A stretch of DNA of 64,000 bases from NCBI RefSeq assembly GCF_000024765.1, contig NC_013422.1, positions 763,501-827,500 on the forward strand. Direction: 5' to 3'. The stretch is from Halothiobacillus neapolitanus c2 (GTDB taxonomy: Bacteria > Pseudomonadota > Gammaproteobacteria > Halothiobacillales > Halothiobacillaceae). A program made the position numbers and the translations under genes. This document shows positions 42,671 to 62,850 of the stretch, one piece after another (position 1 is the first letter of the stretch; each line of letters opens with the position of its first letter). A model generated the notes under the pieces. It saw nothing but the letters and a program-made list of their open reading frames with translations. It was not told the DNA's origin and ran no database searches.

Positions 42671-42940
42671 TTATTCAGGTTCACCGAAACGTTGGGCGAT
42701 CAGTTGATTCAGTGCCGCCATGGCGGCCTGTTCGTCGTCACCATCGGTGCTGATCGTGATGGTCGTGCCGCGGGCGGCGGCCAGCATCATCAGCCCCATG
42801 ATGGACTTGCCATTGACGGTTCTGCCCAGATGTTCCACCTGAATTGTGCATTCAAACTGTGAGGCGAGCGTGGAGAATTTGGCCGCTGCGCGTGCATGCA
42901 GACCGAGTTTGTTGATGATTTCTATCGATTCGGTATGCAT
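42671..42940 (-). CDS. ptsH: Phosphocarrier protein HPr
   Basis: Small phosphate carrier of the PTS. The 89-residue product has the phosphorylated His15 (KLGLHARAAAKF) and the regulatory Ser46 (VNGKSIMGL), which is the target of HPr kinase. Both are intact, which fits with hprK two genes upstream. It overlaps the EIIA gene by one base (TGATG). Enzyme I (ptsI), often next in this order, does not follow: the convergent mnmC ends 2 bp away. A sugar permease is not in the window, so a regulatory PTS is likely. Confidence 0.94.
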   Translation of the reverse strand: MHTESIEIINKLGLHARAAAKFSTLASQFECTIQVEHLGRTVNGKSIMGLMMLAAARGTTITISTDGDDEQAAMAALNQLIAQRFGEPE

Positions 42941-43332
42941 CAGACTGCATCGCCTTCAATAATCCCCTCGCGTCCGCCGGAGGCGACACGCTCGGTCATG
43001 TCGGCCAGATTTAGTTGGGGATAGTTCATCGCGCGAACGACCATCGGCAGATTGACGCCGGATATGACATGAACGCGATTTTTTTCCTTGAGGCGATGGG
43101 CAATGTTGGACGGTGTGGAACCATACATATCGGTCAGTACCAATACACCATCGCCTTGATCAAGATCAGCCAACCTTTTGCGCGCTCGGCTCAGTAATTC
43201 GATGGGGTCATCATCCTGCAAAACACTCAGGTTGCCTGCCGGGATGGGTGCTACTTCCATCATGTCCGTCGCTGTCTCCAGCAGTTGCGCGCCGATATGG
43301 TTATGGCAGATCAATAAAATTCCAACGGTCAT
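42940..43332 (-). CDS. PTS EIIA component, mannose family
   Basis: The 130-residue protein is a single EIIA-Man domain with the phosphorylated His10 in LLICHNHIGAQLL and the segments LVLTDMYGSTPSNIA and VISGVNLPMVVRAM of the ManX family. There are no attached EIIB or EIIC domains, and no permease nearby, so it is a regulatory or orphan EIIA. GGAGC just before the ATG is a good ribosome site. The upstream leader holds the hairpin array. Confidence 0.92.
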   Translation of the reverse strand: MTVGILLICHNHIGAQLLETATDMMEVAPIPAGNLSVLQDDDPIELLSRARKRLADLDQGDGVLVLTDMYGSTPSNIAHRLKEKNRVHVISGVNLPMVVRAMNYPQLNLADMTERVASGGREGIIEGDAV

Positions 43333-43354
43333 TTTCGCTCCGATTCAATTGGAT

Positions 43355-43497
43355 GCTGAAAAATCCATCCATAGATTTTCCAGCTCGGCTTGTTGCGGTG
43401 CACATCCGCAACAATTTTCGCGAATCAACGATTTACATCGTTGTTCGCGTTGGGGCATCCTGCCCCAAACGGTGAATGCTGACATTCAGCGTTCACC
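43355..43497. repeat. Array of five adjacent hairpins in the EIIA leader
   Basis: Five stem-loops follow one another in 143 bp: 43355-43384 (11-bp stem, one mismatch), 43390-43414 (9 bp, TTGTTGCGG/CCGCAACAA), 43419-43449 (13 bp with one bulge), 43450-43468 (8 bp, TTGGGGCA/TGCCCCAA) and 43471-43497 (GGTGAA…TTCACC and GCTGA/TCAGC with a CAT loop). Gaps are 0-5 bases, and most loops contain CAT or CATC. No ORF. It fills the stretch between the EIIA start and the mobile element. Confidence 0.8.
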
Positions 43498-43499
43498 TA

Positions 43500-43774
43500 G
43501 GGGAACCTCTGATTGAATCCCTCGTGAGCCGAGTTGCTGATCCAAAAGCCGCAAAACGAGGCAAAGGCCGAAGGTCGTAGTTTACGCTACGATGCCAAGG
43601 CCGATAACGAAGTGTTGCGGCTTTTGGGCGGCAACCCGCATGGGACGGGCTTTTGAGGGCGATTCGCTGTGTTGCGCCGCTTACGAATGGAATAACCATT
43701 CGTTTCGCGACGCGCCTTGCGACTCATCCCTCAAAAGCTCGTCTCGGCCACGAAGGATTCAATCAGAGGTTCCC
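43500..43774. mobile_element. Miniature inverted-repeat element (MITE) with TA flanks
   Basis: A 275-bp element with long inverted ends: GGGAACCTCTGATTGAATCC near 43501 and its complement ending at 43774. The match continues to about 32 bp with one mismatch and one indel. TA lies directly outside each end (43498-43499 and 43775-43776), as expected for a TA target duplication. Inside is another perfect 13-bp pair (CCAAAAGCCGCAA near 43541 and TTGCGGCTTTTGG ending near 43627). It has no transposase ORF and so would need one in trans. It overlaps the 3' end of rapZ. Confidence 0.85.
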
Positions 43775-44626
43775 TAAATCACGATGGCGGATAATGAGGT
43801 GATCAAAGCGCGGGCGCAAGTCGTCGAACAATTGTTCAACCAGATAGACTGAACGATGTTTGCCGCCTGTGCAGCCGATCGAGCAGGTAACGTAGCTGCG
43901 ATCGGTGCGCACCAGTTCGCTGAGCGTATTGCTTAAAAAGTCTCTGAGGTATCCGCGGGTTTTGTGGGTGATTGGGTGCTGTTCGAGGTAATCGATCACC
44001 ACGCGGTCATTGCCGTTAAAGGGTCGTAGTACGGGTACCCAGTGTGGATTTGGCAGGTATCGGATATCAAATAGAAAATCGCTGTCTAGCGGGATGCCGT
44101 GCTTGAACCCGAACGATTGCAGCATAATGCTCGGACCGGACGAATCACGCCCGATCACACGTCGGGAAATATCTTCCCGGATTTGGTGGATGGTCGTGTG
44201 ACTGGTATCGATGATCAGATCGGCCTGTGCACGCATGGGGAGCAGCAGTTCCGTTTCCTGATTAATGGCTTCGACCAGGTTTTCAATGCGGTTGGAGAGC
44301 GGATGGCGTCGTCGGGTTTCGCTGAAACGGGCGACAATACGGGCTTCGCTGGCCTCAAGAAACAGGCTTTGAATTGCCAGTTGCGGATAATCTGTTTTCA
44401 GTTTCTCGATTCGTTTCGGTAGATCGCGCAAGGCCGGTTCTGGAGAGCGCGCATCAATGCTGATGGCAATGCCCTGGGCTTGAATATCCCCTTGTTGATA
44501 AATTTGCAGCAGGTTGTCTAGCAGTTCAGGCGGCAAGTTATCGATGCAGTAAAAGCCCGCATCTTCGAGCGCAGCCAGAGCGACAGATTTACCTGACCCC
44601 GATTGGCCGGTCACGATGAACACCAT
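43763..44626 (-). CDS. rapZ: RNase adapter/nucleotide-binding protein RapZ
   Basis: P-loop protein that, in enterics, guides RNase E to the sRNA GlmZ and so controls glucosamine-6-phosphate synthase. The 287-residue product starts at ATG 44626 (MVFIVTGQSGSGKS, matching the family N-terminus); a TTG at 44674 is possible but less likely. Other family segments are AGFYCIDNLPPELLDNLL, FGFKHGIPLDSD and CSIGCTGGKHRSV. The last codons (LGNL and stop) come from the inverted end of the mobile element at 43500-43774, so the natural C-terminus was altered by the insertion. Confidence 0.94.
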   Translation of the reverse strand: MVFIVTGQSGSGKSVALAALEDAGFYCIDNLPPELLDNLLQIYQQGDIQAQGIAISIDARSPEPALRDLPKRIEKLKTDYPQLAIQSLFLEASEARIVARFSETRRRHPLSNRIENLVEAINQETELLLPMRAQADLIIDTSHTTIHQIREDISRRVIGRDSSGPSIMLQSFGFKHGIPLDSDFLFDIRYLPNPHWVPVLRPFNGNDRVVIDYLEQHPITHKTRGYLRDFLSNTLSELVRTDRSYVTCSIGCTGGKHRSVYLVEQLFDDLRPRFDHLIIRHRDLGNL

Positions 44627-44725
44627 GGCCGATTGATTCGGCTTTCGTAGTTTGTTCGTTACCAAGGCGCTCAAGCCGAGATCTCGCGGGTCGTTTTAAT
44701 TGTGAAGTTCATGGTGCTCCGGGGG

Positions 44726-62735: not shown

Positions 62736-62850
62736 GGTGTTCCGTATTCGTCCCTTCGCGACAATGCGCCGTGAACCCCGCCAGGCCCGGAAGGGAGCAA
62801 CGGTAACGGTTGCCTTGGGTGCCGGAGATCGGCGGGTGCGGGATGCCACC
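62736..62850 (+). ncRNA. ffs: Signal recognition particle 4.5S RNA
   Basis: The invariant SRP domain IV is present: CCAGGCCCGGAAGGGAGCAA (62781-62800), with the GGAAGGGAGCA core that binds Ffh. The flanks pair: GGTGTTCCG at the 5' end with the region up to GCCACC at the 3' end, and CCCCGCC with GGCGGGTG, giving a single long hairpin of about 115 nt. The exact ends are estimated from pairing. It lies 38 bp upstream of dnaX, a location known in several gammaproteobacteria. Confidence 0.9.

Follow-up and report, generated by a model that had tools for sequence, protein, structure and literature searches.

The window, the whole 64,000-nucleotide stretch of the Halothiobacillus neapolitanus c2 genome that was analysed, carries rapZ, EIIA and HPr in the same direction on the minus strand, with a block of five stem-loops just upstream of EIIA and a second, unrelated MITE between that block and rapZ. 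Hairpins were numbered h1 to h5 from 5' to 3' on the minus strand, i.e. in the sense of rapZ, EIIA and HPr. The features of the locus are as follows.

42940 to 43332, minus strand: EIIA, the downstream gene (PF03610, EIIA-man)
43355 to 43499, minus strand (EIIA sense): five-hairpin mobile element, subfamily A, copy E1, a full-length match to covariance models R1 and R2, fold z of -9
43471 to 43497, minus strand: hairpin 1, outer arm forming the 5' terminal inverted repeat (GGTGAACGCTGAATG)
43450 to 43468, minus strand: hairpin 2, sense loop CAGGATG, an A(N)GGA form without the N, of CsrA-site form (PMC4005645)
43419 to 43449, minus strand: hairpin 3, sense loop GTAA, of GNRA type
43390 to 43414, minus strand: hairpin 4, sense loop GGATGTGCACC, containing the palindromic GTGCAC
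43355 to 43384, minus strand: hairpin 5, sense loop TATGGATGGA, of ANGGA form, outer arm forming the 3' terminal inverted repeat
43502 to 43773, no strand assigned: second MITE, unrelated, approximately 272 bp, terminal inverted repeat GGAACCTCTGATTGAATCC, inserted at the edge of the five-hairpin element
43763 to 44674, minus strand: rapZ, the upstream gene, in the same direction (PF03668 and PF22740)

All five adjacent stem-loops are present as the first-pass annotation of this DNA had described them, filling 43355-43497, and the ATG of EIIA lies 22 nt past the end of the element, which is oriented in the sense of that gene. The folding energy of 43330-43520 is -86.7 kcal/mol, compared with -48.1 ± 4.3 kcal/mol for 200 dinucleotide-shuffled sequences, none of which was as stable (z = -9.0), so the hairpin block is not a product of chance. 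The loops originally recorded as CAT or CATC are GGATG-type loops when read on the transcribed strand, and the description of a repeating fold with non-repeating sequence is correct for the hairpins of the block compared with one another, but the whole block recurs elsewhere in the genome. Neither a sigma-70 promoter nor a terminator was found in the block, and no known Rfam leader or riboswitch covariance model matched the window. The second MITE is one long palindrome with a YTAR-like duplication and at least eight copies in the genome, and it supplies the stop codon of rapZ. Elsewhere in the window, 62745-62841 is an ordinary bacterial small SRP RNA (RF00169).

A DNA search of the same genome identified further copies of the window element at 77-84% identity, along with a copy (L005) whose stems are wholly different from those of the window copy, yet which has the same five-hairpin fold. 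Covariance model R1, built from these copies, gave 21 matches in this genome, 104, 64, 29 and 15 in four congeners and 0-2 in the other congeners, mostly at full length, these counts taking in some antisense or weak matches. The five-hairpin copies sort into subfamilies A to F. A second model, R2, made from 29 diverse copies, had matches in each of the four genera making up the order. Of 369 genomes sampled across the class, 67 gave full-length matches, representing 53 of 272 genera, and so did 41 genomes from other classes of the same phylum; copy numbers in the class and phylum scans are lower bounds, as 7-8 candidates were scored per genome. The exact hairpin-2 sequence occurs in named records including Microbulbifer, Halomonas, Sedimenticola, Pseudohongiella and Thiotrichales, while plasmid and phage records queried with the class B element gave no match. 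The block in the window is thus one copy of a large, dispersed, non-autonomous MITE family of approximately 145 bp and not a leader specific to EIIA-HPr. A covariance search for other copies in the genome, which the first-pass annotation had proposed, was what revealed the family; the assignment of the hairpins to EIIA-HPr is not supported, given copies at many other genome places and an empty site in congener G008.

Copies are flanked by 4-bp target duplications of YTAR type (CTAG, TTAG, ATAG, CAAG, CTAA, TTAA, GTAG and TCAG), which were also seen at far copies, the duplication of the window copy being eroded. The rapZ-EIIA junction of G008 is an empty site, in which ...GATTTAG is followed directly by AACCGGAGCG (also written ...GATTTAG followed by AACCGGAGCGATAATG). 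Two loci in G009 (L097 and L100) hold head-to-tail tandem copies with one common TTAG, each the result of an element inserting into its own target duplication. This genome contains two IS5-family insertion sequences of approximately 1.28 kb (L167 and L170, at ~506006 and ~2078035) with the end GGGCACCTCGAAAAACC, which is the subfamily C end, and an IS5-family insertion sequence in G005 has the end GGAAGGTCTGATCAATT and TTAA duplications, like subfamilies A and F, the ends of which resemble those of insertion sequence L169. The transposases of both this genome and G005 pass the NCBIfam IS5 model NF033581. Since the element ends match the ends of IS5-family insertion sequences, the outer arms of h1 and h5 are identified as the transposition ends. 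A full-length autonomous partner was not found for subfamilies A and B, and no convincing autonomous insertion sequence with class B ends was present in the far loci examined. Based on matching terminal inverted repeats, 4-bp YTAR duplications and the empty site in a relative, the family consists of IS5-type MITEs, and its past mobility is well supported; the shared ends further suggest that IS5-family transposases mobilise it in trans. Two minimal elements of approximately 27 bp, L087 (G000, ~166086) and L076 (~241359), comprise two transposon ends back to back and so amount to hairpin 1 alone, with CTAA or TTAA-like duplications on either side.

At the rapZ-EIIA junction the element is present in three close species, namely this genome, G005 and G009, and was not seen in the other congeners read. 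The G005 copy has a decayed h1 with h2-h5 remaining, and the G009 copy (L011, 1339-1478) has lost h1 by deletion, with a shortened hairpin, GGTCAGGATGACC, still presenting the CAGGATG loop. Related genomes lacking the hairpins, which had been named at the outset as an observation that would speak against the proposed leader, therefore do exist at this locus, e.g. G008.

The comparison for compensatory base changes that had been proposed as a check revealed strong double-sided changes, which supports a structured RNA lying in sense just upstream of EIIA. In an alignment of 29 copies, which was fitted to the structure and is thus biased toward it, 49 of 55 pairs show changes in both partners and 91% of cells are paired, a result approached by none of 500 shuffles and by no slide of the alignment. 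Subfamilies differ in stem sequence while the fold stays the same. A strand-neutral stem finder, accepting Watson-Crick pairs only and with copies more than 80% identical collapsed, recovered 60 distinct G-U mismatch events compared with 16 A-C events (p = 2e-7), and the excess was also seen in h2-h4, which are not transposition ends (34 compared with 7). Under more conservative clustering, 12 clusters had a G-U excess and two the opposite (p = 0.006; bootstrap G-U fraction 0.67-0.88), the sign test being conservative because single linkage at 75% joins most of the copies together. Inside individual subfamilies the excess was modest (88 compared with 61 states), the six copies from outside the class showed equal numbers (3:3), and a MITE unrelated to the family gave 2:8 on an arbitrary strand and from few independent events. 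Upkeep of palindromes at the DNA level predicts equal numbers of G-U and A-C, so a G-U excess on one strand indicates selection on the RNA of the EIIA-sense strand, and an RNA-level constraint on this strand of the element is accordingly well supported.

Placement was assessed for 149 copies with readable neighbours, genes being assigned from ORFs by a simple rule. In 91 cases the gene upstream has the same direction as the element and in 58 the opposite one (p = 0.009), and convergent gaps outnumber divergent gaps by 42 to 16 (p = 0.0009), while copies between co-directional genes are balanced (49 sense, 42 antisense). Elements avoid promoters and tend to occupy positions that allow sense read-through from a gene, and they are not preferentially 5' leaders.

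The loops of the predicted RNA are specific to particular hairpins. An A(N)GGA loop is present in h2 in 103 of 110 copies and in h5 in 107 of 110, compared with 4 of 330 for h1, h3 and h4 together; by cluster, the values are 22 of 23 for h2 and 21 of 23 for h5. The loops take the form CA(N)GGAxG, in which any of the four bases occurs at N and T predominates at x, with the strict form CANGGAXG in 75 of 110 copies for h2 and 78 of 110 for h5, and both loops are more constant between subfamilies than are the stems. The form matches the high-affinity CsrA/RsmE site, which NMR work resolved as a stem that ends in a C-G pair immediately below an ANGGAX hexaloop, whose N and X are looped out and variable (PMC4005645). 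The h2 loop of the window copy is without the N base, an absence that lowers affinity according to the same study (PMC4005645). The genome encodes csrA, which was detected in 61 of 67 element-positive genomes and 252 of 302 others (313 of 369 overall), a gene too common to discriminate; the six element-positive assemblies in which it was undetected include four that are at most 90% complete. Shine-Dalgarno mimicry by the loops was considered and rejected, as the base after GGA is mostly T and not G, which fits CsrA better. Together, motif and fold suggest that the element RNA binds CsrA, and two GGA hairpins per element would suit the CsrA dimer. The first-pass annotation had offered a regulatory RNA or a protein-binding array, possibly involving RapZ; a protein-binding array appears probable, with two CsrA-type loops as the candidate sites, while nothing beyond the adjacency of rapZ points to RapZ as the partner. 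Separately, in many copies the 7-nt loop of h4 is self-complementary (GTGCAC, GCATGC, ACATGT or, with wobbles, GTGTAC), e.g. at window 43390-43414, and such loops would allow kissing dimers between copies.

From the computed family, past mobility, fold, strand and motif, we infer CsrA binding and its consequences, and consider it moderately probable that the element is a mobile RNA that binds CsrA via two hairpins, mobilised by IS5-family transposases and inserted here in sense between rapZ and EIIA. The main rival to this reading is the same RNA with another partner, in which the hairpins of a MITE are kept at the RNA level for transcript protection, processing by RNase III or RNase E, or insulation of neighbouring genes, and the GGA loops serve some other factor. 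The indicated RNA-level constraint, the enrichment downstream of genes and the avoidance of divergent promoter regions (42 convergent compared with 16 divergent) are consistent with such a role, and structured MITE RNAs such as ERIC and NEMIS are known to be processed by RNases in other groups; however, this would leave unexplained why CA(N)GGAxG with its free N occurs only in loops 2 and 5, on stems of unrelated sequence, and we regard it as unlikely. CsrA binding in turn leaves unexplained what an element transposed as DNA would gain from a property of its RNA, which counts against it, as do the missing N base in h2 of the window copy, the near balance of sense and antisense copies between co-directional genes, the modest G-U excess inside subfamilies and the lack of an autonomous partner for subfamilies A and B.

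Two further explanations appear less probable again. Palindromes maintained purely as DNA, with arms kept alike by template switching, by inverted-repeat gene conversion or as transposition cruciforms, would need no RNA role, and this is in keeping with the function of the outer arms of h1 and h5 as transposition ends and with quasipalindrome correction, which would give double changes without selection. However, the one-strand tolerance of G-U over A-C (60:16; 12 of 14 clusters), the greater constancy of the h2 and h5 loops than of the stems between subfamilies, and the fact that h2-h4 are not ends all argue against this explanation, which is disfavoured and in our estimation improbable. Least probable, to the point of being very doubtful, is the idea that the element was recruited at this locus as a riboregulatory leader for EIIA-HPr and is now under host selection, possibly via RapZ or CsrA. 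Its position in sense, 22 nt ahead of the ATG of EIIA, and its retention in three species, including h2-h5 in G005 and the shortened h2 with its CAGGATG loop in G009, would fit such recruitment, but the element is not seen at the locus in the other congeners read, h1 decays in two of the three carriers, three close species are a small sample, other copies sit in many other places, and there is no RapZ link.

Under the CsrA-binding reading, IS5-family transposases would mobilise the element in trans, using the outer arms of h1 and h5 as terminal inverted repeats, while selection would keep the RNA of one strand, in which h2 and h5 present the predicted CsrA/RsmA/RsmE recognition motif CA(N)GGAxG and h3 and h4 may act as spacers or scaffold. 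Transcription of a neighbouring gene that continues through a copy in sense, whether the copy lies in a 3' UTR or separates two co-directional genes, would then yield RNA that binds a CsrA dimer via both loops. The effect would be either to titrate CsrA or to change how stable the host mRNA is or how well it is translated. The window copy, within a rapZ-EIIA-HPr transcript, could put EIIA-HPr under Csr influence. More tentatively, and at somewhat less than an even chance, the family may represent a transposable element that spans several proteobacterial classes with a CsrA-binding RNA cargo, sprinkling Csr/Rsm sites into transcripts and, given tens of copies, perhaps serving as a dispersed sponge for CsrA and so rewiring the global post-transcriptional network of its hosts. 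Should the loops bind CsrA, mobile DNA would contribute both post-transcriptional regulatory wiring and CsrA titration, where MITEs are commonly viewed as passive scraps of insertion sequences. Ends and stems change while the five hairpins and two recognition loops persist across many proteobacterial families, indicating selection on the RNA of an element that transposes as DNA, and the family also provides a large, ready covariation set for a structured RNA absent from Rfam.

Among known systems, the element shares with IS5-family MITEs its short length, the absence of an ORF, IS5-like terminal inverted repeats, 4-bp YTAR-type duplications, high copy number and, by inference, mobilisation in trans, but differs from them in a body that is a conserved five-hairpin RNA, common to subfamilies with different ends and stems and spanning several classes. 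It resembles the sponge sRNAs CsrB, CsrC, RsmY and RsmZ in having GGA motifs in hairpin loops, of the form CA(N)GGAxG, whereas it has only two GGA hairpins per unit, is mobile and multicopy, shows no promoter or terminator of its own and has no Rfam match: the Rfam Csr/Rsm families matched neither the window at gathering score nor seven element loci at E-values up to 5. REP/BIME arrays are likewise dispersed, palindromic and intergenic, but membership was rejected given that the five stems differ in sequence and are not repeats of one palindrome, and given the target duplications and DDE-type ends. ERIC and NEMIS are structured bacterial MITEs that, like the element, take on an RNA fold inside the transcripts of their hosts; they are mainly one long hairpin, and neither is known to carry paired protein-binding loops on stems that show compensatory change between classes. 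Literature linking MITEs with CsrA was not found among the papers searched, individual subfamilies may already be listed as MITEs in ISfinder or in subscription journals, and papers on a Thiomargarita MITE (PMC4853749) and on Alcanivorax CsrR1/CsrR2 (PMC9788540) describe something else. The element may thus be a mobile carrier of CsrA-binding RNA, one that the sources searched do not describe. The IS5-type MITE is a kind of element already known, and what is new is its conserved RNA cargo with paired CsrA-type loops, together with the range over which that cargo is found.
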